From: Thermodesulfobacteriota bacterium
Lineage (GTDB): Bacteria; Desulfobacterota; WTBG01; CAIYCZ01; CAIRTM01
NCBI GenBank assembly: GCA_028282925.1
Contig: JANQGV010000058.1
Span: forward strand, 1 to 35,769
Reading direction: 5' to 3'
DNA: 35,769 nucleotides
The notes below the pieces were generated by a model, which was not told the origin of the DNA, made no database searches, and saw only the letters and a program-made list of their open reading frames with translations. The translations under genes and the position numbers were made by a program. Of this stretch, positions 4,357 through 32,168 are shown one piece after another. Position 1 is the first letter of the stretch, and each line of letters starts with the position of its first letter.

Positions 4357-6807
4357 ATGAAGCAGAATGATCCCAAGCAAACAGCATCATCGGACATGCA
4401 GGACTCGCTCCATTTTGCCCTGCTTGTTGCACACCAGTTAAAATCTCCGGTCGGGGCGGCCGGCTCGCTTGTAAAAACCCTGCTGGGGGAATACACGGGA
4501 AAACTGAACCCCAAGCAGAAGGACCTCCTTGACCGTGCCGACAAACGCATTGAGGAGGCCATTAACACCGTCGGCAGAATGCTGTCGATTGTTCATCCCG
4601 CTACAGGAAAAGACGACTTCGGGACATCGGCTGAAGCCGTTTCGGTCGTCAGGCGCTCACAGCTACGCTACACCCAGGAAACATCGGCCCGGGGAATCAC
4701 GATTACCAATGACATACGCATCGAGCCGGCTTTTGTGCGTATCGATCAATCCATACTGGATGAGATACTCAACTCTCTTTTGAATAACGCCGTCAAATAC
4801 ACGCCCGACAACGGTAAGATAAGCGTAACGGTTAAACCCGTCGACGGAGAGGAAGCGCTCTGCATCTCCATTGCGGATTCAGGAATAGGTGTGCCGGAGA
4901 ATCAACGCGAAAAGGTTTTCGCACCCTTCTTCCGGGCTGAAACTGCCCAGAATACCTCTGTCCCCGGCATCGGACTGGGGCTGGCTTTTGTAAAGGCGCT
5001 GGTTGATGCGGCGGGGGGCAATATCCGGGTGGATCAATCAAACCTGGGGGGCGCCGAATTTTCGGTGGTGGTTCCACTGGCGGCCGAAGCTGAAACCCCT
5101 GAACGTGACGCCGCCGATGATGGGCGCATGAAGGTCGTCATCATCGGCGCGGTTGCGGCCGGTCCCAAGGTTGCCTCAAAAGTAATCAGGCTGCGCCCTG
5201 AGACCAGGGTGACCATCATCGAAAAAGAACCGTTTCTGGCCTATGCCGGGTGCGGCCTGCCGTACTATATCTCCGGTGTTGTTCAGGAGCAGAAGGAGTT
5301 GATGGCAACGCCGCTCGGGTGCGTTCGGGACCCGATTTTTTTTCAGAACGTCAAAAACGTCAACGTCCTCAACAGCACTGAAGCCCTTGAGATCGACCGT
5401 CGGAACAAAAAAGTTCTGATAAAAAATCTTTTCACCGGTGCAACAAGCTGGATCGACTACGATAAGCTGGTGCTGACAACCGGCGCAGCACCCATCATCC
5501 CGAACCTTCCCGGAACACATTTGAAAAACATCTTCACCCTGCACGGGGTACGCGACGCCGAAGGTATCAAGGCGCATGTCAGCGCCGGTAAAGCCCGCGA
5601 CGTTGTCATAATCGGCGGCGGCCTGATCGGTGTTGAAACCACGGAGGCCCTTGTTGAATGCGGGTGCCGGGTAACCATCGTGGAACAGCTTGACCAAATC
5701 CTGGGTATTCTGGATTGGGAAATGGCCCGGCTGGTGGACCACCACATGGAGTCGAAAGGGGTGCGCGTTATGTGCCCCACCAAAGCGCTTGCCGTTACCG
5801 GGACCGAATATGTTGAAAGCGTGGTTACCGACGATGGGCCGTTACCCGCAGACATGGTCATCCTGGCCGTCGGCGTCCGGCCCGAGGTCACCTTGGCCAG
5901 AAACGCCGGCCTGAAAATCGGTACCACCCAGGCCATCAGCGTCGACCGGCACATGCGCACATCGGATCCCGATATTTATGCGGCCGGTGACTGTGTTGAA
6001 AATGTCGACATCATTACAAAAAAACCGGTCTATGTTCCCCTGGGCTCAACCGCCAACAAGCAGGGCCGGGTTGCCGCAATAAACATCTGCGAAGGCGACG
6101 AGACGTTCCCCGGCGTTCTGGGGACCACGGTATGCAAGGTATTTGATTACTGCGTTGCCAGAACCGGCCTTACTGAAACCGAGGCCCGCCAGTCCGGATT
6201 CGATCCGGTAACCGTACTGACCGGGTCCCCCGACCGTGAACATTTTATGCCCAATGCCCTTATCCTCATGCTGAAGCTGGTTGTCGACCGCACCACGCGC
6301 AGGCTCTTGGGCGTGCAGGCGGCCGGTCCCGGCCAGGGAGCAAAACGGATCGACATTGCCGCCACGGCAATAGCCGCCGGCATGACCATCGATCAGGTTG
6401 CCAATCTCGATTTAGGGTACGCACCACCCTACTCCCTTGCCATGGATAACCTTATTACCGGCGCCAACATCGCCCGCAATAAGCTGGCAGGCGTCTTTGA
6501 AAGCATCAGTCCTATTGAAGCCCATCATTTGATCCACAACGGCGATGACATTGTGTTGCTCGACGTCAGCTCTCCCCAGGAGTACGAAACAGAACGCTTG
6601 CCCGGTTCCATGCTGATTCCTTCGGGAGCCCTGCGTGGCCGCATCAATGAGCTGCCCCGGGATAAAACGATTATTATTTTTTGCCGTCTTTCCATTCGCG
6701 GCTACGAAGCAGCCCTCATGCTGAAAGCGGCCGGGTTCAAACAGGTGCGGGTAATGGACGGCGGCGTGGTGATGTGGCCGTATGAAAAAGTATATGGAAT
6801 GAAATAA
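4357..6807 (+). CDS. Histidine kinase / CoA-disulfide reductase-like flavoprotein / rhodanese fusion
   Basis: An 816-residue three-part protein in one uninterrupted frame. Residues 1-250 form a soluble kinase core without a sensor domain: phospho-acceptor His26 in AHQLKSP, N box around N139-N144, D174 of DSGIGV, and the GIGLGL glycine box. Residues 258-~700 form an FAD/NAD(P)H disulfide reductase. They include a Rossmann start VVIIGAVAAG, the active-site cysteine C299 in YAGCGLPYY (position 42 counted from Met258, as in CoA-disulfide reductases), a second nucleotide fold near residue 420, and the FAD motif YAAGDC. Residues ~717-812 form a rhodanese with active Cys776 in IFCRLSIRGY. Parts two and three together match the known CoADR-RHD architecture; the fused kinase is unusual. 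The strong promoter at 4283 and the lack of a ribosome site before Met258 favour the full-length product. Inferred role: a kinase whose input is the flavin, CoA-thiol or persulfide state. Confidence 0.9.
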   Translation: MKQNDPKQTASSDMQDSLHFALLVAHQLKSPVGAAGSLVKTLLGEYTGKLNPKQKDLLDRADKRIEEAINTVGRMLSIVHPATGKDDFGTSAEAVSVVRRSQLRYTQETSARGITITNDIRIEPAFVRIDQSILDEILNSLLNNAVKYTPDNGKISVTVKPVDGEEALCISIADSGIGVPENQREKVFAPFFRAETAQNTSVPGIGLGLAFVKALVDAAGGNIRVDQSNLGGAEFSVVVPLAAEAETPERDAADDGRMKVVIIGAVAAGPKVASKVIRLRPETRVTIIEKEPFLAYAGCGLPYYISGVVQEQKELMATPLGCVRDPIFFQNVKNVNVLNSTEALEIDRRNKKVLIKNLFTGATSWIDYDKLVLTTGAAPIIPNLPGTHLKNIFTLHGVRDAEGIKAHVSAGKARDVVIIGGGLIGVETTEALVECGCRVTIVEQLDQILGILDWEMARLVDHHMESKGVRVMCPTKALAVTGTEYVESVVTDDGPLPADMVILAVGVRPEVTLARNAGLKIGTTQAISVDRHMRTSDPDIYAAGDCVENVDIITKKPVYVPLGSTANKQGRVAAINICEGDETFPGVLGTTVCKVFDYCVARTGLTETEARQSGFDPVTVLTGSPDREHFMPNALILMLKLVVDRTTRRLLGVQAAGPGQGAKRIDIAATAIAAGMTIDQVANLDLGYAPPYSLAMDNLITGANIARNKLAGVFESISPIEAHHLIHNGDDIVLLDVSSPQEYETERLPGSMLIPSGALRGRINELPRDKTIIIFCRLSIRGYEAALMLKAAGFKQVRVMDGGVVMWPYEKVYGMK

Positions 6808-6899: not shown

Positions 6900-7121
6900 A
6901 TGCAATTCATACAGGTAGCAAAAGCAAAAGTGAAGGGAGATATCGTTGAACTGGGCCGGTTTGAAAACTGGAAACCGTTCACCAAAATGAACTCCGATGA
7001 GCGCGACAAGCATCGAAAGTGGATCGAGGGGGTTACACAGAAAGCCGAAGCCATGGATGCCGACATCATAAAAACAGAGTTGTCCACCAGCCGGATACTC
7101 CTTGATTTGGAGCAGGCATAA
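6900..7121 (+). CDS. Small hypothetical protein
   Basis: A 73-residue charged protein that I do not recognise. It has no membrane segment, signal peptide or cysteines. The composition is Lys/Glu-rich and helical in its second half. An AAAGGGTGG purine stretch about 5 bases upstream of the ATG supports translation. It lies 92 bp after the kinase-fusion gene on the same strand and could be co-transcribed with it. A competing longer minus-strand frame (6737-7261) runs through the same DNA but also covers the 3' end of the fusion gene, so I prefer this one. Confidence 0.55.
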   Translation: MQFIQVAKAKVKGDIVELGRFENWKPFTKMNSDERDKHRKWIEGVTQKAEAMDADIIKTELSTSRILLDLEQA

Positions 7122-7235: not shown

Positions 7236-7769
7236 ATGGCCTTAAACGGTACAATTGACAAGTTTTATCTCGCTGATATATTACAGTTGCTGTGCAACGG
7301 AAAAAAGACGGGGGCTCTGCATGTCTGGCATCTGGAAAAAGAAATCAAAATATATATCAATGAGGGCACGATTGTTTATGCCATCGGATCGGAAAAAAAC
7401 CTGCGGCTGGGATATATTTTAAGAAAAAAAGAACTCATTTCCAAAGAAGCCCTCCAAAAATGCATGCGTATCAGCAAGGAAAAGAAACAGGCCCTCGGCA
7501 AGGTTCTGGTGGAAAATAATCTGATTTCAGAAAAAGATCTTGAACAGTGCGTTCATGAAAAAGTTGAGGAAACCCTTTACAACCTGTTCCTCTGGAACAA
7601 AGGGCATTTTGAATTCAAGGAAACGAAGTTGAACCTTGCAGGGCAGGTGCTGACCCGGATGGACACCATCGGCGTTATCCTGGAAGCATCCCGCCGGGCC
7701 GATGAAACCCGGGCCGCACGGGGCGAAACAGACACCAAGCGCCGGGCCACAACAATAACTCTCCTTTAA
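7236..7769 (+). CDS. DUF4388 (PatA-type N-terminal) domain protein
   Basis: A 177-residue soluble protein matching the DUF4388/PatA-like module. It begins with the typical G-x-I/L-x-x-F-x-L-x-D-I-L-Q-L-L pattern (residues 5-19), followed by a GKKTGALHV strand, an IYINEGTIVYA strand, and the later FLWNKGHFEF stretch. The module is common in delta-proteobacteria, where it is often fused to receiver domains or found next to GTPases; its biochemical role is not settled. Here it stands alone with a basic, Arg-rich tail. It has its own promoter and is followed by hairpin-rich DNA. No clear ribosome site precedes the ATG, consistent with the short leader. Confidence 0.75.
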   Translation: MALNGTIDKFYLADILQLLCNGKKTGALHVWHLEKEIKIYINEGTIVYAIGSEKNLRLGYILRKKELISKEALQKCMRISKEKKQALGKVLVENNLISEKDLEQCVHEKVEETLYNLFLWNKGHFEFKETKLNLAGQVLTRMDTIGVILEASRRADETRAARGETDTKRRATTITLL

Positions 7770-10563: not shown

Positions 10564-11661
10564 ATGAACGAACATCTTCAGTACGGTGATACCTCGGCCC
10601 GGATACTTGTTGTTGACGACGAAGAGCCCATACGGCTGCTTTTCAAAAATCAGCTCATGACGGTCGGATATGAATGCTTGACCGCCGGCAGCGGCGTTGA
10701 AGCACTGGACGTGCTCAAAAGAGAAATAGTCGATATCGTCATTACCGACATCATGATGCCTGATATGGACGGCATTGAGCTACTGAGCAACATCAAGGAA
10801 AAGCATGACGGGGCCGATATTATCGTCATGTCGGGATACGCACAGGATTTTGCTTACGACAAAATCATTGAGCTCGGCGCAAAAGATTTCATCCAGAAAC
10901 CGGTTACCCTTGATGAGCTCCTGGTCCGGCTCAAACGGGTGCTGCGTGAACGCTCTCTCCTGATTGAACGGCAACAGCAGCATGAAGAACTGAAAAACGC
11001 CTATCTGGACACCATCAACCGGCTGGCCCTGGCCGCTGAGTATAAAGACGAGGACACGGCCGACCACCTGGTACGGATCAGCCGTTACAGCGTAATCCTG
11101 GCACAAAAGCTGGGCCTCCCGGATGAGATGATAGAGGCCATTCAGTATGCCGCCCCCATGCACGATATCGGGAAAATGGGCATTCCCGACAGTATCCTTT
11201 TGAAACCGGGCAAGCTCACCCCTGAAGAGCTTGAAGTTGTAAAGTCACACACCACCATAGGCGCCAATATCCTTGCCAATTCAAAGTCGGATATTCTCCT
11301 GGTCGCACACGACACCGCATTGACCCATCATGAAAAATGGGACGGCACAGGATACCCTCGGGGAATTGCAGGCAAAGATATCCCTTTGATCGGCCGCATT
11401 GTGGGCCTTGTCGACGTGTTCGATGCATTGACAACAGTGCGACCGTACAAAAACCCCTATCCCCTTGAAGTTGCAATTGAAATCATCACCAAAGAACGCG
11501 GCAAACACATGGACCCGGAACTGACCGACCTGTTCCTCGACAATATCGATTCAATGCTGCAGGTCAGAAAGGATGTCAGTTCCGATCAGAACATTTCACT
11601 GGCGGATTTCATCTGGAGCGAACGCGATAAAGAAGCCTATCCACAGCTTGCCGGCACGTAA
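10564..11661 (+). CDS. Response regulator with HD-GYP c-di-GMP phosphodiesterase output
   Basis: A 365-residue two-domain regulator. The receiver domain (about residues 12-130) has acidic DDEE, phospho-acceptor D62 in ITDIMMPDMDG, and the KP lysine. The HD-GYP domain (about 150-325) has H200-D201 of HDIGK and the HHE-x-x-DG-x-GYP motif from H255. All signature residues for hydrolysis of cyclic di-GMP to GMP are present, so it should be active. GGAG lies 6 bases before the start. No cognate kinase is adjacent; candidates in the window are the fusion kinase at 4357 and the hybrid kinase at 25313. It is followed after 32 bp by amn. Confidence 0.93.
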   Translation: MNEHLQYGDTSARILVVDDEEPIRLLFKNQLMTVGYECLTAGSGVEALDVLKREIVDIVITDIMMPDMDGIELLSNIKEKHDGADIIVMSGYAQDFAYDKIIELGAKDFIQKPVTLDELLVRLKRVLRERSLLIERQQQHEELKNAYLDTINRLALAAEYKDEDTADHLVRISRYSVILAQKLGLPDEMIEAIQYAAPMHDIGKMGIPDSILLKPGKLTPEELEVVKSHTTIGANILANSKSDILLVAHDTALTHHEKWDGTGYPRGIAGKDIPLIGRIVGLVDVFDALTTVRPYKNPYPLEVAIEIITKERGKHMDPELTDLFLDNIDSMLQVRKDVSSDQNISLADFIWSERDKEAYPQLAGT

Positions 11662-12600: not shown

Positions 12601-15066
12601 CTACTGGAATAAACCGGCCCAGAAACCCTGGGATGCAGCTACAAAACCGTGTCTGACGGCCTTACCCGTCCGGCCTATCTCCTCCAGGAAATAGTAGTAC
12701 TGTGTCCCCAACCCGACCCAGCGGTCCACAAACCGGTAATGCGCATCCCCGTCGGCACGACCCCGGGCGGGAATCAACACCGTATTGACTTTCTCAAAAG
12801 GTCCGGCGGTGCTTGAGGACCTGTACAGATTAAATCCTTGCGTAGCATCCTCGCCGGATGTCGACCACTTCAGAACCACATTCCAACCGATCGATTTTGC
12901 ACTGAAGGATGCCGGGGTAACCGCGGTTTCACCGCCTGCCGGCCCGGCCCGAAAAAGACCGAGGTACGTGGTCGCAAAGCTCACACTGCCGTTGCCGGAG
13001 AACGCTGTGTCGATTTCCTGCCACTCCCGGGTCAAATGGTTATACACATATACGCCCACCGGGCTGTTTCCGGCCGATGCCGCATCATAGGGAAGAGTGA
13101 TCGTTACATCCCGGTTGAACAACGTCCGGTACGGCCCGAAATGCACGGCAGGCCCCAGGGCCGTCACACCACCCATATCCGGCGGATTGGTCCGGTGGGA
13201 AATACTCAGCATCGTGTCTTCCCACATACATTCAAACGTATCTGCCGGGTCGTTGAATGCAATGGCTGTTTCCGGGGTAAACTGCTCGGGGTAATCGGGA
13301 TAGGGGTCGGCGGGCACCATAATTTTTGCACCGGCAACGGCACTTGCAGCGTCCTTCACTTCAAGCGTACCTCCGTCGCGCTTTGTAAACAACTGTGACT
13401 CCGAGTAACCGAACTGTTCATCAAGGGGATACACGCCGAAACGCTCGATACCGCCCCGCAACCGCGTCGTGTACACGGTTGCAAACTCATCGGTCAGATT
13501 GTTGAATGAGGGCGTAATCGTTATTTCAGCAACTGCATCCTGGCTGTTGCAGGCGGTTTCATTATCCACGGCATCCTCGCAGTAGGTCAGGTCGAACCGG
13601 TCGGCCTTCATATCCGCCATGGATACAAGCGGCAGATTGCTGTTTTTACGCATGATATACTGTGTGTCCTGGGCATCACCGTGCCAGTGAGCCGGCACAA
13701 TGACCATTTTGTCGATACCTTCCGTTTTGGCCATCTGGATGGCATCGCGGATGATGTAAAATTTACCGCTGAGCTTATCCGGGGTTAGATAGCCGTAGGC
13801 ATAAAAACTGTCCTGCAGCAACTCGCTCCCGTTGCGACTGAAAACCAGATTATAGCGATCGCCGAAAGCATCCTGAAGCGCCTTTTTCCATGACAGAAAG
13901 TTCAAAAAACTGTTCTCATGGATCACCTCTTTCCACCAGGGATGCTGGACACCCATGAAACCGTAGGTTTCCTTACCCGGCCAGGAAAGGCCGTGGGTGA
14001 CGTAAATCATGGCGATGGTACTGCCCTCTGGATAGGCTTCGATATACGGCCCGACATGCATAACATTCATCGCATTGAACTCAGGCGTCCGCCCGATCTG
14101 GCGCACCTGGTAAAACTCGGTCTCATCAAGCGTACCGACCTCACACAGTTTTTCCTTGATATAATTGCCGGTGATGAAATTATTGGCGTAGTGATTGTTG
14201 TCCGTGGTTTCACGCGAAGCCAGCATTTTACGGTAGCCCTCACGGGCAAAATCTTCCGCCACATCGATTTCATGTTCGGTATATCCCGGCACGGCCGTAT
14301 AGTAGCCGTCCCGCACATCAATTTGGTCGCCGAAAGCGGTTTCGAGTTGCGCAATGGTTACCGCCATTTTATCTTCGTAAAAAAGGTGGATCGTATCCGC
14401 ATCGGCAGCGGTCCACGGTTCGGTCTGCAAGCCCATAATTTTGTAATAGTACATAAACAGCATGTTATTGAGCTCATACATATCCCCCAGCCCGTTGGCA
14501 AAAACATTGTCGAACGAGATCGTTTCGATTTTGTACCACCCGTCCATCAGGTTCTCTCCCGTTCGCGGGTCCGGCGGAAACTGCAGTGCGCCCGTCATGA
14601 AATCAACGACCTCATCGGCCGGTGTAACAGTAACCTGGTTCAGGTCTACTGCATCAACAGCAAGCGCAGGCTCATCGGGGTGAATGCTCACATACGTGCC
14701 CGACTCCTCATCAAGATAATAAAAACCACCCCGGTCATAGGTATATTCCATTCCCGGCCACTCATGGTTGAGTCCCCAGGGCATAATGCCCAGATGCGAT
14801 ATCTGCGACTCGCCGCTGCTGTTGTCGAAAGCTCCCACATGCCCGATCTTGCACGGCTCACCGACATACTCCGTGGTGTCCCCTACCCGCGCCCAGTAAT
14901 GATTATCCCAGGAATACTCAAAAACATATCGTGTCGGTTGACCCCAGGCGGTTATCAGCACGGCCACCCGGTCCTCAATCGGTGTCTGTCCCGTTGCCTG
15001 CGGGCACATACTCATAACGGTGAAAAGAATAATAAAGCCGCTTTTAATAAAAATACTGAACCTCAT
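12601..15066 (-). CDS. Large exported ferrochelatase-fold-like protein (paralogue 1)
   Basis: An 821-residue exported protein and paralogue of the gene at 15153. A signal peptide occupies residues 1-26. Residues ~30-480 resemble, by eye, the two lobes of a ferrochelatase. Lobe 1 opens VAVLITAWGQPT (compare LLLNLGTPDS) and contains SRETTDNNHYAN. Lobe 2 opens YVTHGLSWPG, where His358 aligns with the metal-binding His of SAHSLP; it then has YNLVFSRNGSE and PAHWHGDAQDT with D464/D467 near the usual Glu. Residues ~565-705 form a beta domain with FGPYRTLFNRDVTITLPYD (ZU5-like). Residues ~715-810 are an FN3-like module (GFNLYRSSS, ending RHGFVA). A GGAGGG ribosome site precedes the ATG. It lies downstream of a terminator-like hairpin that separates it from its paralogue. 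No metal or tetrapyrrole activity is proven; the chelatase link is an inference. Confidence 0.8.
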   Translation of the reverse strand: MRFSIFIKSGFIILFTVMSMCPQATGQTPIEDRVAVLITAWGQPTRYVFEYSWDNHYWARVGDTTEYVGEPCKIGHVGAFDNSSGESQISHLGIMPWGLNHEWPGMEYTYDRGGFYYLDEESGTYVSIHPDEPALAVDAVDLNQVTVTPADEVVDFMTGALQFPPDPRTGENLMDGWYKIETISFDNVFANGLGDMYELNNMLFMYYYKIMGLQTEPWTAADADTIHLFYEDKMAVTIAQLETAFGDQIDVRDGYYTAVPGYTEHEIDVAEDFAREGYRKMLASRETTDNNHYANNFITGNYIKEKLCEVGTLDETEFYQVRQIGRTPEFNAMNVMHVGPYIEAYPEGSTIAMIYVTHGLSWPGKETYGFMGVQHPWWKEVIHENSFLNFLSWKKALQDAFGDRYNLVFSRNGSELLQDSFYAYGYLTPDKLSGKFYIIRDAIQMAKTEGIDKMVIVPAHWHGDAQDTQYIMRKNSNLPLVSMADMKADRFDLTYCEDAVDNETACNSQDAVAEITITPSFNNLTDEFATVYTTRLRGGIERFGVYPLDEQFGYSESQLFTKRDGGTLEVKDAASAVAGAKIMVPADPYPDYPEQFTPETAIAFNDPADTFECMWEDTMLSISHRTNPPDMGGVTALGPAVHFGPYRTLFNRDVTITLPYDAASAGNSPVGVYVYNHLTREWQEIDTAFSGNGSVSFATTYLGLFRAGPAGGETAVTPASFSAKSIGWNVVLKWSTSGEDATQGFNLYRSSSTAGPFEKVNTVLIPARGRADGDAHYRFVDRWVGLGTQYYYFLEEIGRTGKAVRHGFVAASQGFWAGLFQ

Positions 15067-15152: not shown

Positions 15153-17789
15153 TTACCAGTTGAAAAGAGTCGACCACAAACCCGGCTCGGCTTTTACGGG
15201 CCCATGCCTGGTTGCGGTACCGTTCAGGTCAACGTCTTCCAGGAGATAGTAGTTCTGCTCCCCCCATGAACGTCCCCAGTCCACTAAACGATAGCGCGCA
15301 CCGGAAACGGAGTTTCCCCGTGCTGGTATTAAAGTCGTATTCACTTTCTCAAAGGGGCCGTCGGCGCTTTGTGACCGGTACATATTAAAGCCGGCATTGT
15401 CGATCTCGCTTGATGTCGTCCATTTCAGCACCGCATAAGGCCCAACCGCTTTCGCGCTGAAAGATGCCAGGGTGATCAGTGTCGGATCATCTGTTTCGGC
15501 CAACGTATAAATACCCAGCACCTGTACGTCGAAGGAAACAGTGTGATTTTCGGTATCAATGGCCAGGCCTCCCCCTGCCGGAACAGGATATACCGGATCC
15601 CAGCCCCTGGTCAAGTCATTAAAAACATACGGGCGCACGGCACCGGGGTGCGTTACTTCATCCGGATCATAGGGCAGCGTAATGCGGGCCGGGTTGTTGA
15701 ACAGCGTACGGTACGGACCGAAATACACCCGCGGACCGACACGCGGATAGGTTGTCATATCCGGCAGCGCCGTCCCCGGCTCAACGTCACGTTGCTCCCC
15801 GGCATAGGCCGTAAAATCAAACCAGGCGCCGATCTTGGGGTCTTCAGGGTCGTTAATGGTGGTGTATTCTATCTCCTTACACACAACTATTTCATCCGGG
15901 GTTGGTCCGGTTGTCGCGGTCGCTTCAGCAGGCACGGAACACATTTCCGGATAATACCCTTCCGGTTCGGCCGGGGCCGGGTCGGCCGGAACAAAAAGCT
16001 TAGCCCCGGCCCGGGGGCCGCTGCTGATTTCAACCGAACCTCCTGCAAGTTTACCGATCTGCCCCTCGGCCTCAATGGTAATACCAAGGTCCGGAAGGAC
16101 ACCGAAACGCTCAACTCCACCGCGAATGCGTTGCGCATAGCCGATAATCATTTCCTGGGCAACCTTGTCGAAACACTCCGTATAGACGATATGGATATCA
16201 TCGGGGTTTGAGCACTGCATGTTCGGAGGGCTGACCTCGGTCCAGACAACCTCGTCACTCGGCGTTGAGCTTTCACACCAGTCTACCCAGTACTTGTCGT
16301 TTTCAAGGTCTTCGTAGGAATTCATCGGCAACTTCTGCACATCGCGCTGGGCCAGTCCGTTATCGATACTGTCGATATACCAGTGCGAGAGGAGAAAAAT
16401 AGCCTCTTTACGCCCGTCTTCTTTCATGCGCTCAATATTTTCGCGCACATTCATAAACTCGGCTTCCGTTTCGCCCGGAATCGTATAATATTCCGATTGA
16501 AACATGGCATAGGAATAATAATTGTCTTTGCGCATATCGCCGCTCTTTCCGGGACGGGTCCATACCAGATTATAGGTATCCCCGAAAACATCTTCGGCAT
16601 AGCGCTTGAAGCTCAGGTAATTGTAGTAAGCGTTTTCAGGATAGACATCGTTGACCCATGGATGCGAAACCGCAAAAGCGCTGTCAAGGTCGGCGCTGGT
16701 ACCCGGCCAGGGGTTACCGTAGGTCACATAGGCCAGGGCAACTTCGTCGGTACCGGGATCAAGCCGCTCAAGGTGCTGCTGCAGGATTGTGCCCACCATG
16801 GTGTTGTATTCCGGTGTACGGCCGATCTGCTTGACCTGTTTGATATCAACCTCATCGAGTAGACCGTTCCTGCACAGTTCATAGTCCACCCAGTGCCGCG
16901 TCATGGAAATATTGGCGTAATCGTTATTATCGGTGGTTTCACGGGTCAACAGCATTTTCGTCAACCCCTCATCAGCCATATCCCGGGCCACATCCTCATG
17001 CCGCCGCGTCAGGTCGCCCGTGGCTTCATACATGCCGAAACGAATGTCCACCTTTTCACCGAAATATTCATGAAAATAGTCGGCCAGCTCCTCTTCCATT
17101 TGCACGGTGAACGGGTGCATACGGGCACCGTCGGCATACTCGGGGATGTCCAGCATGCGTACCGTGCGCCACCACGAAGCCATATCAAGCTCGTCCATGT
17201 CGGAAATGCCGTTGGGGAAATTGACGTAAGCGTCTTTACCCGTAGCCGGACTAATGGTCTTTTCTCCGATGATGACCATATCGGCCAGATGGTCGGTGCC
17301 GTCCCGGGAGTCAACCGTGTAAATCGCCCGCCCGCGCCCAAAGGTGATGGTGCTGGCCGGGTCGGCGTTCACCCCATCTGGAAAATCCGTCGCGGATACC
17401 GTCTTTGTCGCATCCAGGATACTGGTGTACGTACCGTCGCCGTTGTCCCAGTAAATGCCGTAAGCGTCATAAATAAACTCCCAGCCCGGCGTTTCAAACG
17501 CAAGCGCATGCGGGTAGACACCATGAAAAGAGCGGTAGGGGTACACCCCGTTAAAATCCTCTTCGCAGGGCACATCCTCGCCCGTGGCTTCAATACCCAC
17601 CCGGGAGCGATGGCCTATCTGGCTGTAGTAATTGAAGTCCATCCCGTCCGGGGTCCCCCAGTCGGTAACCAGCACACCCACCTTTTCATCGATGGGGACC
17701 GCCCCAAACGCGTAGTGCGAACCCATCGGCAACCCGATGAAAAAAACCACCAAAACCATAGTCATAATTGATACGAATACCTTTTGCAT
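15153..17789 (-). CDS. Large exported ferrochelatase-fold-like protein (paralogue 2)
   Basis: An 878-residue exported protein from the ATG at 17789, chosen for its GGAGGAG ribosome site and immediate signal peptide (residues 1-30); the frame is open 21 codons further. Domain order is as in paralogue 1. The chelatase-like core (~35-490) has VGVLVTDWGTPDG, TRETTDNNDYAN, QIGRTPEYN, YVTYGNPWPG, YNLVWTRPGKSG and LLSHWYIDSID. A ZU5-like segment follows (FGPYRTLFNNPARITLPYD, ~688-707). A C-terminal FN3-like module (~775-865) ends EDVDLNGTATRHGP. The position aligned with the ferrochelatase metal-ligand histidine is Tyr357, whereas paralogue 1 keeps a histidine. It is the first gene behind the enhancer array and candidate sigma-54 promoter. 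It could be a catalytic, binding or structural partner of paralogue 1; function unknown. Confidence 0.8.
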   Translation of the reverse strand: MQKVFVSIMTMVLVVFFIGLPMGSHYAFGAVPIDEKVGVLVTDWGTPDGMDFNYYSQIGHRSRVGIEATGEDVPCEEDFNGVYPYRSFHGVYPHALAFETPGWEFIYDAYGIYWDNGDGTYTSILDATKTVSATDFPDGVNADPASTITFGRGRAIYTVDSRDGTDHLADMVIIGEKTISPATGKDAYVNFPNGISDMDELDMASWWRTVRMLDIPEYADGARMHPFTVQMEEELADYFHEYFGEKVDIRFGMYEATGDLTRRHEDVARDMADEGLTKMLLTRETTDNNDYANISMTRHWVDYELCRNGLLDEVDIKQVKQIGRTPEYNTMVGTILQQHLERLDPGTDEVALAYVTYGNPWPGTSADLDSAFAVSHPWVNDVYPENAYYNYLSFKRYAEDVFGDTYNLVWTRPGKSGDMRKDNYYSYAMFQSEYYTIPGETEAEFMNVRENIERMKEDGRKEAIFLLSHWYIDSIDNGLAQRDVQKLPMNSYEDLENDKYWVDWCESSTPSDEVVWTEVSPPNMQCSNPDDIHIVYTECFDKVAQEMIIGYAQRIRGGVERFGVLPDLGITIEAEGQIGKLAGGSVEISSGPRAGAKLFVPADPAPAEPEGYYPEMCSVPAEATATTGPTPDEIVVCKEIEYTTINDPEDPKIGAWFDFTAYAGEQRDVEPGTALPDMTTYPRVGPRVYFGPYRTLFNNPARITLPYDPDEVTHPGAVRPYVFNDLTRGWDPVYPVPAGGGLAIDTENHTVSFDVQVLGIYTLAETDDPTLITLASFSAKAVGPYAVLKWTTSSEIDNAGFNMYRSQSADGPFEKVNTTLIPARGNSVSGARYRLVDWGRSWGEQNYYLLEDVDLNGTATRHGPVKAEPGLWSTLFNW

Positions 17790-17877
17790 TTCAACTCCTC
17801 CTTTACTCGTTTGTTGTAAACAGGGTTCATCTTCCAAACCCGGCATGCACACCGCCCGGTCCTCTGTGACTCATTAA

Positions 17878-21828: not shown

Positions 21829-23295
21829 CTAGCCATTGTGATCGACAAAGCCCTTGTCTGTTTCAAAATCAAAGGCCGGATCTCGTGTCTCGGTATGGCA
21901 CTTGATACAGGTTTCAAAAGTAATAGCCCCGGAAGGCTTTGCACCGTTTTCCACGTGCTCCCCTCCCGGCCCATGGCACATCTCACACTGCACCCCGGCC
22001 AGCTCAGGCGTAAGGTCCGGCCGCTCAAACCCTCCCAGATACCCCAGACCCGTCACATGGCAGTCGACACATTCGGGATTATAGTCCTGATACACTTCCG
22101 CAAGGGAATCAAGCGCCCGGGCGTGCGGCGTATTCCGCCAGGAGTCGGCATAGTCGCCGTGACAGGACTCGCATGAGCCGCCCCCGGCATAGTAACCGCC
22201 TTCCGCGGGCTCCTGCTGCGGTATGTCGAACAGTTCGTCCTTGTAGCCTTCCAGGCTTTTGTAATATCTCTCAAAAAGCTCCCGAACATCCGTATCTTCT
22301 TCAATGTCTGCATCCAGCGTTATCAGCTCCCCATCGGTGGAAATAATTTTTTTATTCGTGTCCAACGTGAGTCTTATGTTCCCGATGTTCTCCCCAAAGT
22401 AACCGGCCTTAACTATGGCGACGCCGTTTACCCGCAACGGCACCGATATTTCATCTATGCCGTGCCCCGCAATAATAACATCAATACCTTCAACCGTTTT
22501 GGCGAGTGTTTTTGCCTCGCCCAGCCCGACGTTTGCAGCAACCACAACAACATCAACTTCTGCGCGAAGGCGTGCAACGTGCGCCTGGAGCATTTCAGTT
22601 TCATCCGTCACAGACAGGTCGGAAGCAGTGGTATTGTCTGCTTCAATAATATCATCTGTATATTTTTTTGCTGCTACACCGGTAACTCCGACGGTCAGAC
22701 CGTCAAAGGTAACAATATGAGACGGAGCGGCAATGGTTTTCTGCGAATCTGCATAAACAATATTCGCACTGACAACGGGCACGTCATGGGCGCGGGCCGT
22801 TTTAATGATGTAGTCGGCGCCGAAAACAAAATCATTGTCGCCGAGATTGAGCGCATCATAGCCCATAGCACCCATCGACTCTATTGTCAGATCGGCTTTA
22901 AGCTGCTCCTGCAGCCCCGCATTTGAAAAAACATTGCCTGCATCAACAACAAGAATGTTTTTCGCCTGTTCCCGTATGCTCTTAATGTATCCTGCGCGCC
23001 TGGTGAGCCCACCTACCACTTCTGCGCTGCAGCCGCAGAGGTCAATGCTCCCAAGGGTATCGCCGGTATACAGAATGGTCAGCGTATTTTTTGATGAAAC
23101 AGTGCAACCCGATATCACCAAAACCATACAGCACAGCATAACCGTAAAAAAACCCGTCGCCGAGTTGCCCATAGTTGACGTGCGCACCCGTACCCCTTCG
23201 CCGCCCATGTAGTCTCGCTCAAGGTCCTCACGCATGGCTTGCACACCTCTTGTTCTTGTGCTGAGATTTACCACAATCATTTTATCGCGCTTCAT
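21829..23295 (-). CDS. UshA-like metallophosphatase lipoprotein fused to a tetraheme c-type domain, with foreign N-terminal extension
   Basis: The frame from the ATG at 23295 (AGAGGTGG ribosome site, 5-base spacing) encodes 488 residues. Residues 1-~38 resemble the start of an aldehyde:ferredoxin oxidoreductase. A lipoprotein signal follows (Met42, hydrophobic core, ISG-C with lipid Cys64). The natural start of the lipoprotein is probably Met42 at 23172, which now lacks its own ribosome site. Residues ~70-320 form a 5'-nucleotidase-type metallophosphatase with LCGCSAEVVGGLTRRAGYI. Catalytic positions look altered (GDTLG, DAGN, GDNDF, AANVG, GHGID), as in UshA-like relatives rather than true nucleotidases. 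Four haem sites follow: CESCH, CVDCH, CEMCH, CIKCH (375, 409, 437, 463). It is probably periplasmic and membrane-anchored; electron-transfer partner unknown. Confidence 0.82.
   Translation of the reverse strand: MKRDKMIVVNLSTRTRGVQAMREDLERDYMGGEGVRVRTSTMGNSATGFFTVMLCCMVLVISGCTVSSKNTLTILYTGDTLGSIDLCGCSAEVVGGLTRRAGYIKSIREQAKNILVVDAGNVFSNAGLQEQLKADLTIESMGAMGYDALNLGDNDFVFGADYIIKTARAHDVPVVSANIVYADSQKTIAAPSHIVTFDGLTVGVTGVAAKKYTDDIIEADNTTASDLSVTDETEMLQAHVARLRAEVDVVVVAANVGLGEAKTLAKTVEGIDVIIAGHGIDEISVPLRVNGVAIVKAGYFGENIGNIRLTLDTNKKIISTDGELITLDADIEEDTDVRELFERYYKSLEGYKDELFDIPQQEPAEGGYYAGGGSCESCHGDYADSWRNTPHARALDSLAEVYQDYNPECVDCHVTGLGYLGGFERPDLTPELAGVQCEMCHGPGGEHVENGAKPSGAITFETCIKCHTETRDPAFDFETDKGFVDHNG
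23173..23295 (-). pseudogene. N-terminal fragment of an aldehyde:ferredoxin oxidoreductase gene
   Basis: The 41 codons before the lipoprotein Met include MIVVNLSTRTRG, then REDLERDYMGGEGVRV. This matches the start of tungsten aldehyde:ferredoxin oxidoreductases, where an I-x-VNL(S/T)T strand is followed by E-x-L-x-x-x-(Y/W)-GG-(R/E)-G. The remaining ~560 residues are absent. Context supports the origin: a 2[4Fe-4S] ferredoxin gene ends 22 bp upstream and an FAD oxidoreductase precedes it, partners typical of such loci. The frame passes directly into the lipoprotein without a stop. Confidence 0.6.
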
Positions 23296-23316
23296 TCTCA
23301 CCACCTCTTTCCCTTT

Positions 23317-25312: not shown

Positions 25313-28300
25313 ATGGGCGGATTACAAATAGGCCAGCGGCTGCTGGCAGGCTTTGGACTGGTTATTCTACTGGCTGTTCTGCTGGGAGTCGTTGCCGTCG
25401 TCAAGATGAACACCCAGGCCGACATTGCCTCACAAATGTATGACCACCCCCTCGTCGTCAGCAACGCCGTCCGTGAGATCAAAGCAAACATTAATGCCAT
25501 GGACAGGTTCATGAAAGACATAGCCCTGTCCCGTTCCAAGGAAGAGATAGACAAAGCCGCGGCCCGCATCCAGACGTACGAGCAGGACACCTTGCGGCTT
25601 TTCGGCATCGTAACGGAGCGGTTCCTGGGCGATCCCGGCGATGTCGACAAGGCACGCCGGGCCTTCATGGACTGGCGCGGCATCCGCGAAGAGATTATTG
25701 CACTGACAAAAAAAGGCGACACATTTGCGGCCGCCTCCGCCACACGGGACAAGAGTGCCCCACACATGGACTCCATAGATAAAAAAATGCAGATCATGGT
25801 CGACTTTGCCGGCAAAACATCTGAAACCTTTTACCGGAACGCCGAAAGAACCAGGGCCGCAAACATCACAACCATGCTGGCGCTTGTGCTTGCAACCGCT
25901 GTTCTGGGCATCGCAATCTCATGGACCATTGCCCGCAGTATCACCGCTCCCCTTGAAAAACTCATCCCCCTGGCCACGGATGTGGCCGACGGATCGGCAG
26001 CTACAGCGCTTGACAACAGGCGCAGTGATGAAGTCGGCCGGATCATTGAATGTTTCAACAGTATCGTCGCTTCCAACAACATGATTATGTCCCAGGCCCG
26101 GGCCCTCTCCCTCGGCGATTACTCTCAAGACATCAATTTACGCTCGGAAAAAGATGAGCTGGGCCGGGCGTTGCAGGGCATGACCACGGCGTTGCGTGAA
26201 TCCGGCGTAGAAAACCGGCGTCAAAACTGGATCAAAACCGGGCAAAACGAGCTGAACGAGAAAATGCTCGCTTACCAGGACATTGCCGCGCTGAGTAACA
26301 ACATTATAACGTTTCTGTCAAAATACCTGGGCGTCCAGGTAGGCGCCCTGTATCTCTATCATCAGGAGGAACAGGAACTGCGGATGACCGGGAGTTACGC
26401 CTTCACCAGGCGGAAACAACTGGGCAATGTCATCCGCCCCGGCGAGGGTCTGGTCGGACAGGCCGCGCTTGAGCGTGAAATCATATCGGTCACCGACCTG
26501 CCGGAAGATTACACCCGGATAGCCTCGGCAATCGGTGACACCATACCGCGCAATGTCGTTGTGATGCCGCTGAAGCATGCCGGCACCCTTACCGGCATCA
26601 TCGAGTTGGGAACCGTCCGTGAGCTGTCGGACCAGGCAATCGATTTTCTGCATACCGTCGCGGAAAACATCTCCATTGCCCTTGATTCGGCAACAGCCCG
26701 CAAACAAATGGAGGCCCTCCTGACCCGCACCCAACAGCAAACGGAAGATTTGCGGGCCGGACAGGAAGAACTGCGCCAGACCAACGAGGAACTGGCCGAA
26801 CAGACCGGCGCCCTGAGAGCCTCGGAAGAAAAACTCCAGGCCCAGCAGGAAGAACTGCGCCAGACCAACGAAGAGCTGCAGGAACAGACCAGGCTGCTTG
26901 GAGAACAGAAGACCTCCATTCAGAACAAAAACCGGGAGCTGGAAACGGCGCGCAAACTCATTGAAGAAAAAGCACGGGACCTGGAAATGTCCAGTAAGTA
27001 TAAATCTGAATTCCTGGCCAATATGTCCCATGAGCTGCGCACGCCTCTCAACAGCATTCTGCTGCTCTCGAAAATGTTGGCCGAAAACAAGGCCGGCCGG
27101 TTGACGCAGAAACAGACTGAGTTCGCCCGGACCATCAACTCGTCCGGGACCGAACTCATGGAGCTTATCAACGAAATTCTTGATCTGTCGAAAATAGAAT
27201 CGGGCAAATTTGAAATTCATAACGAAGCGATCTCGCTGAAAGAGTTTACCCGGCGCATGGAGCGGCACTTCAAGCACCTCGCACAGCAAAAGAATATTGC
27301 CTTTTCAATAACAATCAGTCCCGAAAGTCCTGAAGAGATATGTACTGATCGTCAACGGTTGGAGCAAATCATTAAAAACCTGCTGTCGAACGCATTTAAA
27401 TTCACCACAGAAGGGCAGATAACCCTCAGCGTAGGTCGACCGGCTCCGCAAACCCGGTTGCCTGCCGGAAACCATCCTGAAAAAACCATTGCTTTCAACG
27501 TCTCCGATACCGGTACGGGCATTTCTGTCGACAACCACAAGAATATTTTCGAGGCCTTTCAGCAGGCCGACGGCACAACCAGCAGAAAGTACGGCGGTAC
27601 CGGTCTCGGTCTCGCCATATCCAGAGAGCTTGCCGGGCGCCTCGGCGGTGACATACATCTGGAAAGCGAGCCGGGACAGGGCAGCACATTCACCCTTTTT
27701 CTCCCTGAAAACACCCGGCAAGAAAACTCTGCACCTGCTCCCGATACAGCCCGCCAACCCATTGTAACCATGCAGCCGGAGCCGGTGCAAAGCAAACCCT
27801 CCACGGAGCCGGAACTGATTCCCGATGACAGGAAAAAAATATCGCCGGGTGACAAAGCAATCCTTATCGTTGAAGATGACCCGAATTTCGCAAAAACATT
27901 GTGTGAATTATCCCGGGAACGTGATTTCAGGGTGCTCGTTGCCGGAGACGGCGAGACCGGTCTTCACTTTGCCGATTATTACCGGCCCAGCGCCGTTATT
28001 CTGGACATCGACCTGCCCGGCATGGACGGTTGGGAGGTGATGGCCCGCCTGAAAGAAAATGCCGAAACACGGCATATCCCCGTTCATTTCATATCAGGAT
28101 ACGATAAGGAAATAGATGCACGCAAAATGGGGGCCATCGGCTATATAACAAAACCGGTTACCATGTCTGCGATCGATACGGCCTTTGAGAAAATAGAATC
28201 AATGCTGGCTAGAAAAGTCAAGACCCTCCTGGTAATAGAAGATAACGACCCGCAGCGTAAAAGCATTGTTGAACTGATCGGCGATGGTGATGTCAAAACA

Positions 28301-29023
28301 ACTGAAGCCGCCAACGGCAATGACGCATATGCGCTGCTGAAAAAAAAGGCGTTCGACTGCATGATTCTCGATCTCGGCCTGCCGGATATATCCGGGGTCG
28401 ACTTCCTCAAAAAGATCAAGGACGATGATACCATACCCTATATCCCTGTTATTGTGTATACCGGTAAAGAGCTTACCGGGCGGGAAGAAAGCATGATAAA
28501 TCAGTACGCGGAAAAACTCATCATCAAGGGGACCAAATCAGCCGAAAAACTCATTAATGAATCAACCCTCTTTTTACACCGTATTGAACAGGATTTGCCG
28601 CTGCAAAAGCGCCGTATCCTGCAGTTGATGCATGATAAGGAAACCGCCTTCCACAATAAAACCGTTCTTATTGTGGACGACGACATGCGCAACGTCTATG
28701 CCTTGAGTAACGTGCTTGAGGACAAGGGAATCAAAACCATCGTTGCAAAAGACGGTAAGGACGGGCTGAACCGGCTTAAGGAGTCCGACGGCGTAGACCT
28801 GGTGCTTATGGATATTATGATGCCGGAAATGGACGGCTACGAGGCAATGCAAAACATCAGAAAAGACTCTGCGTACCGGCATCTCCCCGTCATTGCCCTG
28901 ACCGCAAAAGCAATGGCGGGCGACCGGAAAAAATGCATCGAAGCCGGCGCAAACGATTATCTGGCGAAGCCGGTCGACACCGAAAAGCTCCTGTCCATGC
29001 TGAGGGTATGGCTGTATGGGTGA
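25313..29023 (+). CDS. Hybrid sensor histidine kinase: 4HB sensor-HAMP-GAF-kinase-REC-REC-REC
   Basis: A 1236-residue membrane kinase. Helix 1 (~9-31), a periplasmic four-helix bundle of the chemoreceptor type (~32-183) and helix 2 (~184-206) lead to a HAMP with a second HAMP-like repeat (~207-310). A GAF domain (~325-460) and a long Gln/Glu-rich coiled coil (~464-565) follow. The kinase core has His573 in MSHELRTPLN, NLLSNAFKFT, DTGTGIS and GGTGLGLAIS. Three receiver domains carry phospho-acceptors D898, D1020 and D1167. All catalytic parts look intact. An AGGAGAGGAA ribosome site precedes the ATG. It heads an operon with cheR, cheB and a REC-GGDEF gene (gaps 41, overlap, 30 bp). CheR/CheB next to a kinase with a receptor-like input suggests methyl-adaptation of the kinase itself, perhaps in the coiled coil. 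Confidence 0.94.
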   Translation: MGGLQIGQRLLAGFGLVILLAVLLGVVAVVKMNTQADIASQMYDHPLVVSNAVREIKANINAMDRFMKDIALSRSKEEIDKAAARIQTYEQDTLRLFGIVTERFLGDPGDVDKARRAFMDWRGIREEIIALTKKGDTFAAASATRDKSAPHMDSIDKKMQIMVDFAGKTSETFYRNAERTRAANITTMLALVLATAVLGIAISWTIARSITAPLEKLIPLATDVADGSAATALDNRRSDEVGRIIECFNSIVASNNMIMSQARALSLGDYSQDINLRSEKDELGRALQGMTTALRESGVENRRQNWIKTGQNELNEKMLAYQDIAALSNNIITFLSKYLGVQVGALYLYHQEEQELRMTGSYAFTRRKQLGNVIRPGEGLVGQAALEREIISVTDLPEDYTRIASAIGDTIPRNVVVMPLKHAGTLTGIIELGTVRELSDQAIDFLHTVAENISIALDSATARKQMEALLTRTQQQTEDLRAGQEELRQTNEELAEQTGALRASEEKLQAQQEELRQTNEELQEQTRLLGEQKTSIQNKNRELETARKLIEEKARDLEMSSKYKSEFLANMSHELRTPLNSILLLSKMLAENKAGRLTQKQTEFARTINSSGTELMELINEILDLSKIESGKFEIHNEAISLKEFTRRMERHFKHLAQQKNIAFSITISPESPEEICTDRQRLEQIIKNLLSNAFKFTTEGQITLSVGRPAPQTRLPAGNHPEKTIAFNVSDTGTGISVDNHKNIFEAFQQADGTTSRKYGGTGLGLAISRELAGRLGGDIHLESEPGQGSTFTLFLPENTRQENSAPAPDTARQPIVTMQPEPVQSKPSTEPELIPDDRKKISPGDKAILIVEDDPNFAKTLCELSRERDFRVLVAGDGETGLHFADYYRPSAVILDIDLPGMDGWEVMARLKENAETRHIPVHFISGYDKEIDARKMGAIGYITKPVTMSAIDTAFEKIESMLARKVKTLLVIEDNDPQRKSIVELIGDGDVKTTEAANGNDAYALLKKKAFDCMILDLGLPDISGVDFLKKIKDDDTIPYIPVIVYTGKELTGREESMINQYAEKLIIKGTKSAEKLINESTLFLHRIEQDLPLQKRRILQLMHDKETAFHNKTVLIVDDDMRNVYALSNVLEDKGIKTIVAKDGKDGLNRLKESDGVDLVLMDIMMPEMDGYEAMQNIRKDSAYRHLPVIALTAKAMAGDRKKCIEAGANDYLAKPVDTEKLLSMLRVWLYG
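26762..26890 (+). repeat. 84-bp-period repeat in the kinase coiled coil
   Basis: The segment encoding QEELRQTNEELxEQT occurs at 26762 and again at 26846, nearly identical in DNA. The period of 84 bp equals 28 residues, exactly four heptads, so duplication or loss would keep the coiled coil in register. Confidence 0.75.
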
Positions 29024-29064: not shown

Positions 29065-29916
29065 ATGATACAGTCGGTCCCGGACGACCCGCATAGCGAG
29101 CAAAAACAGAACGAGTCGATTGAAATACAATTGCTTCTTGAAGCAATATATCTGAAATACGGATATGATTTCAGGAATTATGCCTGTGCATCCATTAAAA
29201 GGCGGATCGTGCGCAAAATGGACCTGGAAAACATTCCTACCCTGGCCGATATGCAGCACCGGCTCCTCTATGATCTCGATTTTTTTGAAACGCTGCTCAT
29301 GGACCTTTCAATCAATGTGACTGAAATGTTCCGTGATCCTTCGTTCTACAAAGCCCTGCGCGAAAAGGTACTGCCGGCCCTGCAGGGTACCCCGTTTATA
29401 AAAATATGGATTGCCGGGTGTGCAACCGGGGAAGAGGCCTATTCCGTCGCCGTCATACTGCAAGAAACAGGGCTGTACGATGCATGCAGAGTCTATGCAA
29501 CCGATTTCAACGAAAAAGCGCTCCAGCAGGCAAAAGAAGGAATCTATACGGCCGAAACAATACGGCAAAGCACCCATAACTACAAACTGGCCGGCGGTGC
29601 TGCCTCCTTTACCGACTACTATACCGCCCGGTATGATAATGCCATCATTGATCAGTCGTTAAAAAAAAATGTGGTTTTTTCAGACCATAACCTGGTGACC
29701 GACAGCGACTTCGGTGAAATGAATATCATTATCTGCCGCAATGTCCTGATCTATTTTAACCGTACACTGCAGGACCGTGTTTTTCAATTGTTCCACACAA
29801 GTCTGCCGCCGGGCGGTTTCCTGTGTCTCGGATCGAAAGAGAGTATCGGTTTGTCGGAATACGCCGACAGGTTTGATCACATTATTCCCAGAGAAAAAAT
29901 ATACCGGAAAAAATGA
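29065..29916 (+). CDS. cheR: CheR-type protein glutamate methyltransferase
   Basis: A SAM-dependent methyltransferase of the CheR family, 283 residues. The N-terminal helical CheR domain (~25-85; YGYDFRNYACASIKRRI, then SINVTEMFRDPSFY) recognises the substrate. The catalytic domain has the SAM-binding IWIAGCATGEEAYS, acidic ATDFNEKAL, and IIICRNVLIYF, all canonical. It normally methylates glutamates on chemoreceptors, but no MCP signalling domain is encoded in the window, so the target is probably the adjacent hybrid kinase. It overlaps cheB by ATGA, implying coupled translation. Confidence 0.94.
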   Translation: MIQSVPDDPHSEQKQNESIEIQLLLEAIYLKYGYDFRNYACASIKRRIVRKMDLENIPTLADMQHRLLYDLDFFETLLMDLSINVTEMFRDPSFYKALREKVLPALQGTPFIKIWIAGCATGEEAYSVAVILQETGLYDACRVYATDFNEKALQQAKEGIYTAETIRQSTHNYKLAGGAASFTDYYTARYDNAIIDQSLKKNVVFSDHNLVTDSDFGEMNIIICRNVLIYFNRTLQDRVFQLFHTSLPPGGFLCLGSKESIGLSEYADRFDHIIPREKIYRKK

Positions 29917-30515: not shown

Positions 30516-32168
30516 ATGCAGTCAATGCAAACGGCAAAAATCCTGCTGGTCGACGACCGTTCGGAAAACCTCCTGGCTCTGGAGAGCCTGCTTGAAAGCC
30601 CTGGCGTTGAAACCGTAACCGCGACCTCGGGAAACGAGGCCCTCACGCATATGCTCGGCCATGACTTTGCCCTGGTACTCCTTGATGTACAAATGCCCGA
30701 CATGGACGGTTTTGAAACCGCCGAATTCATGCGCAGCAGGGATACGACAAAAGACGTACCCATTATTTTCGTCAGTGCCGTCAACCAAGACCACAACTAT
30801 ATTTTCAAGGGCTATGAACAGGGGGCCGTCGATTACATGTTCAAACCCCTGGACGAATATATTCTTAAAAGCAAGGTACAGATATTCCTCAACCTGTACC
30901 GCCAGAAAAAGGCATATGAGCAAACGACCCTGGAACTCTCCCGTGCCGTAGACGAGCTTCAAAAAGCCAATAAAACCATTGTCGAGCAGCAAAAATCGGT
31001 TATTGAAGAAGAGCGTTTGAAGCTGCTGCTCCAGATGGCAGGGGCCACCGCCCATGAAATGAACCAGCCGCTGACTGCATTGCTGGGCGGCATTGATCTT
31101 ATCAACTTACACCTGCAGGACCCGGAGAAGCTGCCCGACGACCTCCGCCTGGTTAAAGACGCCGGCAAGCGAATTGAAAATATTGTGCGCAAAATTCAGA
31201 ATGTGCGCAGGGTCGAGACGGTTCCGTATGTAAGCAACAACTCCATTATAAATTTCGACCAGAAGATCAAAATACTTTCGGTCGAGGACTCTCCTGAATT
31301 TTTTGAGTTACTGAATAGAATCATCAAGAAAAATCCGGGCATGCAGGCCTATAATGCACCTGACTGTGCCGCTGCCCGGAGGATGATCGAGGAAGAAGAT
31401 TATGACCTGATCCTGCTTGACCATGTGTTACCTGACGGAAATGCTTTCGATGTTATGGAGGCTCTCAGGCAAAACAACAGCCCGACACCGGTCATCGTTA
31501 TAACCGGCCACGCTGATGAAGTGACCGCTTCCCAGGCCATCCAGGCCGGTGCGGCCGATTATTTGAACAAAAAAGAAGTTACCGGGGAATCACTTCATCA
31601 AAGCATTAACAATATCCTTGAGAAACAGCGGCTCCAGATGGAAATACGGGCCGCCATGGGTAAAATGGCTGAAATGGCGACAACCGATGAATTGACCAAA
31701 CTCTACAACCGCCGGTATTGCACCGAAGCCCTGGAGCGCGATATTGCCCGCACATCCAGGTACGGCGGCGAACTGACCGTCTGCTTGATCGACCTTGATA
31801 ATTTCAAAAAAATCAATGACTCCTACGGCCATGCGGCCGGTGATGTTGTGCTGACGGAAGTCGCAAAACTGCTGACCAAGAACATGCGAACGGCCGATTG
31901 TCTCGGCCGCTATGGTGGCGAGGAATTTCTGGCAATTCTGCCCAACACCAATTGCGACAGCACCGCACTTGTCTGCGAGCGTTTTCGAAAAGCCGTGGCA
32001 AACCACGCTTTTGCTTTCAATGAAGTCCATTTCCAGATTACCGTCAGCATCGGAATCGCCCAAATGGAAGACAACCGGTTATCCATGACGGATCTGATCA
32101 ACAGGGCCGATCAAGCTCTTTACAAAGCCAAAGAAGCGGGCCGTAACCGGATTGAGGTATACACGTAA
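30516..32168 (+). CDS. REC-DHp-REC-GGDEF diguanylate cyclase
   Basis: A 550-residue soluble regulator. Receiver 1 (~8-125) has D57. A coiled coil leads to a dimerisation/phosphotransfer helix pair with His180 in TAHEMNQPL. No ATPase domain follows; instead receiver 2 (~250-365) has D302. The GGDEF domain (~385-548) has the active motif GGEEF at 467-471 and a product-inhibition site RTAD exactly five residues before it. It should make cyclic di-GMP from two GTP. The kinase-like histidine cannot autophosphorylate in cis, so it probably relays phosphate between the receivers or accepts it from the hybrid kinase upstream. It is the last gene of the operon begun at 25313. Confidence 0.93.
   Translation: MQSMQTAKILLVDDRSENLLALESLLESPGVETVTATSGNEALTHMLGHDFALVLLDVQMPDMDGFETAEFMRSRDTTKDVPIIFVSAVNQDHNYIFKGYEQGAVDYMFKPLDEYILKSKVQIFLNLYRQKKAYEQTTLELSRAVDELQKANKTIVEQQKSVIEEERLKLLLQMAGATAHEMNQPLTALLGGIDLINLHLQDPEKLPDDLRLVKDAGKRIENIVRKIQNVRRVETVPYVSNNSIINFDQKIKILSVEDSPEFFELLNRIIKKNPGMQAYNAPDCAAARRMIEEEDYDLILLDHVLPDGNAFDVMEALRQNNSPTPVIVITGHADEVTASQAIQAGAADYLNKKEVTGESLHQSINNILEKQRLQMEIRAAMGKMAEMATTDELTKLYNRRYCTEALERDIARTSRYGGELTVCLIDLDNFKKINDSYGHAAGDVVLTEVAKLLTKNMRTADCLGRYGGEEFLAILPNTNCDSTALVCERFRKAVANHAFAFNEVHFQITVSIGIAQMEDNRLSMTDLINRADQALYKAKEAGRNRIEVYT

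Follow-up and report, generated by a model that had tools for sequence, protein, structure and literature searches.

Our picture of NADH and sulfane sulfur sensing in anaerobes, and of its coupling to hydrogenase control, comes mostly from DNA-binding repressors, e.g., Rex, a one-component repressor that responds to NADH and acts on redox and hydrogenase genes. That sulfur species can signal through two-component systems is established in principle by the sulfide/persulfide regulator NreB-NreC of B. licheniformis (PMC9918477). Among flavoenzymes, Archaeoglobus NoxA-3 is an NADH-dependent persulfide reductase (Npsr) that acts on NADH and per- or polysulfide without CoA-disulfide reduction; it is a dimer with a CoA pocket built from both subunits, and its rhodanese cysteine is the proposed entry point for sulfur (PMC7969121). 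Solved structures exist for A. fulgidus NoxA-3 (6pfz), the S. loihica Npsr (3ntd/3nta), and the B. anthracis CoA-disulfide reductase (CoADR)-rhodanese (3ics), and the known Npsr proteins carry no kinase. Histidine kinases of the HisKA type, such as YycG/WalK/VicK and T. maritima HK853, have an H-box of the form H-E/D-x-x-T/N. In the kinase CrdS, kinase activity depends on the acidic residue directly after the phospho-acceptor His (H+1) and phosphatase activity on T/N at H+4; the H+1 substitution E372Q abolished the former while sparing the latter (PMC3510030).

Here, we describe a gene that joins both kinds of module. Within the window (the whole 35,769-nucleotide stretch of Thermodesulfobacteriota contig JANQGV010000058.1 that was analyzed), positions 4357 to 6807 of the forward strand are a single uninterrupted open reading frame encoding an 816-residue protein, made up of a histidine kinase core, an Npsr-type reductase, and a rhodanese, as delimited by the reading frame, Pfam, and homologous fusions. 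Its features, all on the forward strand, begin with a DHp (HisKA-type) helical hairpin at residues 19 to 80 (4411 to 4596), where the Pfam HisKA match is weak (residues 24 to 77, 19.7 bits against a cut-off of 26.9), followed by an ATP-binding (CA) HATPase_c domain at residues 130 to 242 (4744 to 5082; 2.9e-24). A short linker (5083 to 5127) leads into the FAD/NADH-dependent persulfide reductase module with its dimerization domain, at residues 258 to 706 (5128 to 6474; Pyr_redox_2 at 258 to 551, 1.2e-60; Pyr_redox_dim at 593 to 696, 1.7e-15; also delimited by NCBIfam and PDB matches), and the rhodanese occupies residues 721 to 807 (6517 to 6777; 4e-15). Like YycG/WalK/VicK and HK853, the protein has the full DHp and CA layout; unlike them, it has no sensor domain recognizable by Pfam ahead of the DHp helices, and an input-like module lies C-terminal to CA, so that the kinase precedes the enzyme in the chain. 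Unlike Rex, it has no DNA-binding domain. An AlphaFold model of the fusion from four sequences was too poor for use (mean pLDDT, 58). In the part of the literature that we searched, we found neither a kinase with an Npsr or rhodanese module nor this fusion family, its H-box variant, or its hydrogenase and receiver context. Every module is known, and the novelty would lie in their combination, as a two-component sensor with an enzyme as its C-terminal input. We assign a probability of roughly 55% to the reading that the protein is a two-component sensor that is soluble, takes its input from an NADH/persulfide flavoenzyme plus rhodanese, and governs hydrogen and redox metabolism.

The draft genome that holds the window consists of 324 contigs, which gives some room for an assembly chimera or a chance read-through joining two neighboring genes. 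The initial annotation had proposed the in-frame fusion and had pointed to relatives with a stop or frameshift near codon 250 as evidence that would overturn it; we found none. The same in-frame arrangement, with a linker of 12 to 21 aligned residues in all fused proteins, recurs in independent genomes of three taxonomic groups at 51 to 69% identity to the window protein (69% for the full fusion in genome G007 of the window's own family and 55%, 52%, and 51 to 63% for others), which refutes an assembly artifact and reduces the probability of a chimera to almost nil. In the window's family, the fusion is present in four of nine genomes and is split at contig ends in two of them (G001 and G002). 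It was also found in 23 of 298 sampled Phycisphaerae genomes, in 2 of 137 genomes of the order Victivallales, and, for the whole phylum to which this order belongs, in 7 of 241 genomes sampled. Among 395 sampled genomes of the window's phylum, no further fusion passed an E value of 1e-160 and the remaining matches were unfused reductases with ∼50% identity. A further 294 genomes sampled from the phylum of the Phycisphaerae yielded G397 alone at 1e-180. Comparison of the kinase part with that of G007 gave a dN/dS of ∼0.14, with dS saturated. On this comparative evidence, the fusion is real, conserved, and under selection.

The closest unfused relatives are reductases from the same organisms as the fusions (56 to 67% identical to the window protein). 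In a quick maximum-likelihood tree of the reductase, all 32 fused proteins share one starred branch, the only unfused member of which is a contig-edge gene; within this branch, the window's family groups with fusions from the phylum holding Victivallales (86, unstarred). A single origin of the fusion fits this tree, and transfer into the window's deltaproteobacterial family would be the simplest reading. The unfused gene at locus L116, which starts at a contig edge, may have lost the fusion. Among the unfused relatives, we found no precursor arrangement in which kinase and reductase genes lie separately side by side; the sole near case is a GAF-kinase-like gene 1.4 kb from the L113 reductase.

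The enzyme half had been described at first as a complete CoADR-rhodanese. Its two expected cysteines are indeed in place, Cys299 in the motif AGCGLPYY (codon at 5251 to 5253) and Cys776 in the rhodanese (6682 to 6684), but the CoADR label does not hold. Against TIGR03385, the CoA-disulfide reductase equivalog model, the window protein scores 405.9 bits, below the cut-off of 578.8. Among solved structures, it matches A. fulgidus NoxA-3/Npsr best (6pfz; E value, 1.8e-145), with residues 258 to 807 aligned end to end, and it contains a counterpart of the Archaeoglobus CoA lid-type loop, ELMATPLGCVRD; in the 6pfz comparison, ELMATPLGCVRDPIFFQ (5296 to 5346) aligned with the CoA-covering lid loop (TTYGAVR) of A. 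fulgidus Npsr. Because of the sub-cut-off CoADR score, this best match, and the lid-loop counterpart, the reductase is by sequence closer to Npsr than to CoADR, and Npsr is the better name. Cys299, the single active-site Cys of this FAD/NAD(P)H oxidoreductase class, is kept in all 76 proteins compared (32/32 fused and 44/44 unfused). Also invariant in the fused proteins is Glu443 at the end of the second Rossmann strand, a position that we take to favor NADH over NADPH, and the C-terminal Tyr of the reductase is kept in every fused protein covering that region. The 6pfz homology and the invariant NAD-site Glu point to NADH-dependent per- or polysulfide reduction as the probable activity of the fusion reductase.

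Conservation of the kinase half is equally strict at its catalytic positions, with one departure. Residues H26, N144, D174, G176, G206, and G208 are unchanged in 32/32 aligned fused proteins, as are F188, G204, and the N, G1, F, and G2 boxes of the ATP-binding domain as a whole; the loss of H, N, or G boxes in orthologs that would have spoken against the initial annotation was thus not seen. Mean pairwise identity among the 32 proteins is 0.53 for DHp, and the core of the window protein matches the NCBIfam PnpS model at 1e-30, below that model's cut-off, and PDB entries 3sl2 and 4i5s. The departure lies in the H-box. His26 is followed by Gln27 (codons at 4432 to 4437), and this Gln replaces the acidic H+1 residue of HisKA kinases in every one of the 32, while H+4 is Ser in 22, Gly in 8, and Glu in 2 and never T or N, giving H-Q-x-x-S/G/E in place of H-E/D-x-x-T/N. 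The description of the kinase core as intact therefore stands for His26 and the ATP boxes and needs qualifying at H+1 and H+4, and the H+1 residue speaks against calling the fusion protein a canonical HisKA kinase. Autokinase activity should not be assumed for it, and Gln at H+1 is the main reservation about the sensor reading. Given this Gln, autophosphorylation may be poor, and it is possible, if rather unlikely, that the protein is a phosphatase-biased or phosphotransfer-only module in which the state of the reductase controls whether receivers that another kinase has charged are dephosphorylated. Such a module would agree with the kinase-dead, phosphatase-competent phenotype of the E-to-Q change at H+1 of CrdS (PMC3510030) and with the second kinase gene that adjoins the fused gene in two loci, a GAF kinase in L108 and a PAS-type kinase (4-bp overlap), beside a receiver protein, in L140. 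It agrees less well with the invariance of the ATP-binding boxes and with the phosphatase position itself, which is S, G, or E; the missing T/N residue in the 10/32 proteins with G or E also weighs against the sensor reading. HQ is moreover not unique to the fusion, because three of the nearest unfused kinases with a readable H-box (L068, L070, and L072) also carry it, which argues that HQ kinases exist.

The fused and unfused reductases differ in their rhodanese. Although the window copy resembles Npsr in its active-site Cys, its lid-type loop, and its rhodanese Cys, the last of these is replaced by Gly or Ser in 7 of 31 fused proteins and in 0 of 44 unfused relatives (Fisher p = 0.0013, with kinship ignored), and parsimony places four changes on the reductase tree, i.e., at least four losses within the fused lineage. 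In this lineage, the kinase and the flavin-site Cys are constrained, and sulfur delivery by the rhodanese is dispensable in places, a pattern that would be expected of an enzyme turning into a sensor. There are two further alternatives. The protein could be primarily a working persulfide reductase that is modulated by its attached kinase and requires no receiver, as might be suggested by the fact that every fused protein covering that region retains Cys299, the NAD-site Glu, and the C-terminal Tyr, and by the standing of the reductase as the best-conserved module (mean identity of 0.64, versus ∼0.5 for DHp and CA); we regard this as improbable, since the proposed sulfur entry point of Npsr has been lost repeatedly and only in fused proteins, while the phospho-His is invariant. 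Less probable still, the kinase might respond mainly to something else (oligomerization, CoA level, or ATP), with the reductase as a dimerization or tethering scaffold. The missing N-terminal sensor and the dimeric Npsr fold with its shared CoA pocket would suit a scaffold, but a mere scaffold would not need an invariant Cys299, lid loop, and NAD-site Glu.

Gene neighborhoods also separate fused from unfused genes, with signaling and hydrogenase genes around the fusions as against the sulfur-transfer genes of known Npsr. With the same query set, a receiver, Rex, or hydrogenase gene lies within 2 kb at 15 of the 34 fused loci and at none of the 23 unfused ones (p = 1e-4, only indicative, as the queries were picked from fused loci and the loci are related and not independent); the other 19 fused loci have no such link. 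Stand-alone receiver (REC) genes lie within 220 bp of the fused gene at six loci (L089, L091, L093, L096, L108, and L121) and ∼1 kb away at L092 and L102, and no receiver lies within 2 kb of any of the 23 unfused loci, which likewise counts against a primarily enzymatic role. At L091, one strand carries in order the fused kinase, REC, AsrA-like, AsrB-like, ferredoxin-like, NuoH, NuoB, NuoC, and NuoD-like genes, and at L099 the same AsrAB-like-NuoH/B/C/D-like set follows Rex in place of REC. The large subunits of both loci have both [NiFe] ligand motifs, RICGIC and DPCYSC; the set downstream of the L091 REC is accordingly a predicted group of energy-converting [NiFe] hydrogenase subunits, and a membrane-bound sulfane reductase is ruled out for L091 and L099 by the presence of both CxxC motifs. 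L096 and L121 have REC, a hydrogenase maturation protease, a [NiFe] large subunit, and NuoE/F-like (HoxEF) genes, whereas at L110 a [NiFe] large subunit and then a protease precede the fused kinase, with a 4-bp overlap with the fused gene. Rex is present at L107 and L108, HypD at L109, and NicO, Rex, and HydF/E/G genes at L122 (Victivallales). The fused gene in G002, from the window's family, is transcribed divergently from an [FeFe]-hydrogenase set. This variety of arrangements argues against one inherited cluster behind the linkage, which suggests a role in hydrogen/NADH redox metabolism; the sharing of neighborhoods with Rex (L099, L107, L108, and L122) suggests the same physiology.

Some further observations concern these flanks. 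The [FeFe] hydrogenase gene beside the fusion at L157 (G002:C37, 446 to 2218) reads as two frames, with a single in-frame TAA close to the end of the contig, possibly an assembly error. At L158 (G002:C75, 392 to 2498), also from the window's family, the fused gene is directly followed by genes for an OmpR-type response regulator and the cognate sensor kinase; this regulator, 31 bp downstream, was excluded from the counts as a partner because its own CusS-like kinase follows. At unfused loci of the order Victivallales, sequence reading by eye placed the reductase with NifX-like and MBL-like genes in L061 (L061/L124) and with DsrE-like and ParA/ferredoxin-like ATPase genes in L063 (L063/L126).

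The use of the flavoenzyme as a kinase input, as originally suggested, fits these data because the kinase boxes are invariant, rhodanese Cys loss is confined to fused proteins, and receivers, Rex, and hydrogenases are linked to fused and not to unfused genes. The partner offered with that suggestion, a REC-HD-GYP protein encoded at 10564, did not fare as well: no such neighbor occurs in the retrieved flanks of fused relatives, where the receiver neighbors are stand-alone RECs, and the accompanying link from thiol/persulfide state to c-di-GMP is unsupported, with the linkage favoring hydrogen/NADH redox metabolism. In the two-component sensor that we favor, the protein would form one symmetric dimer through DHp and the Npsr dimer interface, since both are dimers. 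NADH would reduce the flavin, and per- or polysulfide or CoA-persulfide would oxidize the Cys299/CoA couple; the flavin/Cys299/CoA-(per)sulfide state could be relayed by the short linker to the ATP-binding domain and so alter phosphorylation or dephosphorylation of a stand-alone receiver, whose output might tune hydrogenases and related systems for electron disposal, at the level of genes or enzymes. In most members, the rhodanese would supply the sensor with sulfane sulfur; in others, it would play a noncatalytic part. We offer more tentatively, as a version that may well prove too specific, that the persulfide reductase is the sensory half, that its flavin/Cys state sets phosphorylation of a hydrogenase-controlling receiver, and that the rhodanese has lost catalysis and is purely sensory in several lineages; in that case, the protein would be a histidine kinase that reads NADH or sulfane sulfur directly for hydrogen metabolism. 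More generally, the fusion probably lets anaerobes match their hydrogen metabolism to a redox or sulfur state that it reads. With receiver and hydrogenase genes as its neighbors, a kinase that bears an NADH/persulfide flavoenzyme offers a testable phosphorelay route, for which L091, L093, and L096 provide well-defined kinase-receiver pairs, and the fused proteins with and without the rhodanese Cys form a natural series on the change from enzyme to sensor.

The window's own fused gene is not adjoined by a receiver, Rex, or hydrogenase gene, confirming the earlier observation for receivers. The window's genome encodes one [FeFe] and one [NiFe] hydrogenase, both away from the fusion, and beside them we found large hybrid kinases and no REC-only gene. 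Just 3' of the fusion are a 73-residue reading frame without a family match (6900 to 7121, +) and a DUF4388 protein (7236 to 7769, +), neither of which was recognized beside fused relatives. Farther along, two neighboring genes on the reverse strand encode proteins of 821 and 899 residues (12604 to 15066 and 15156 to 17852) with no Pfam or NCBIfam match. Another reverse-strand gene (21832 to 23304) has C-terminal cytochrome c554/c3-type multiheme domains. After a hybrid kinase (25313 to 29023) and a CheR gene (29065 to 29916) comes a gene for a 550-residue protein (30516 to 32168, +) that contains two receiver domains flanking a HisKA-like stretch, as well as a GGDEF domain.
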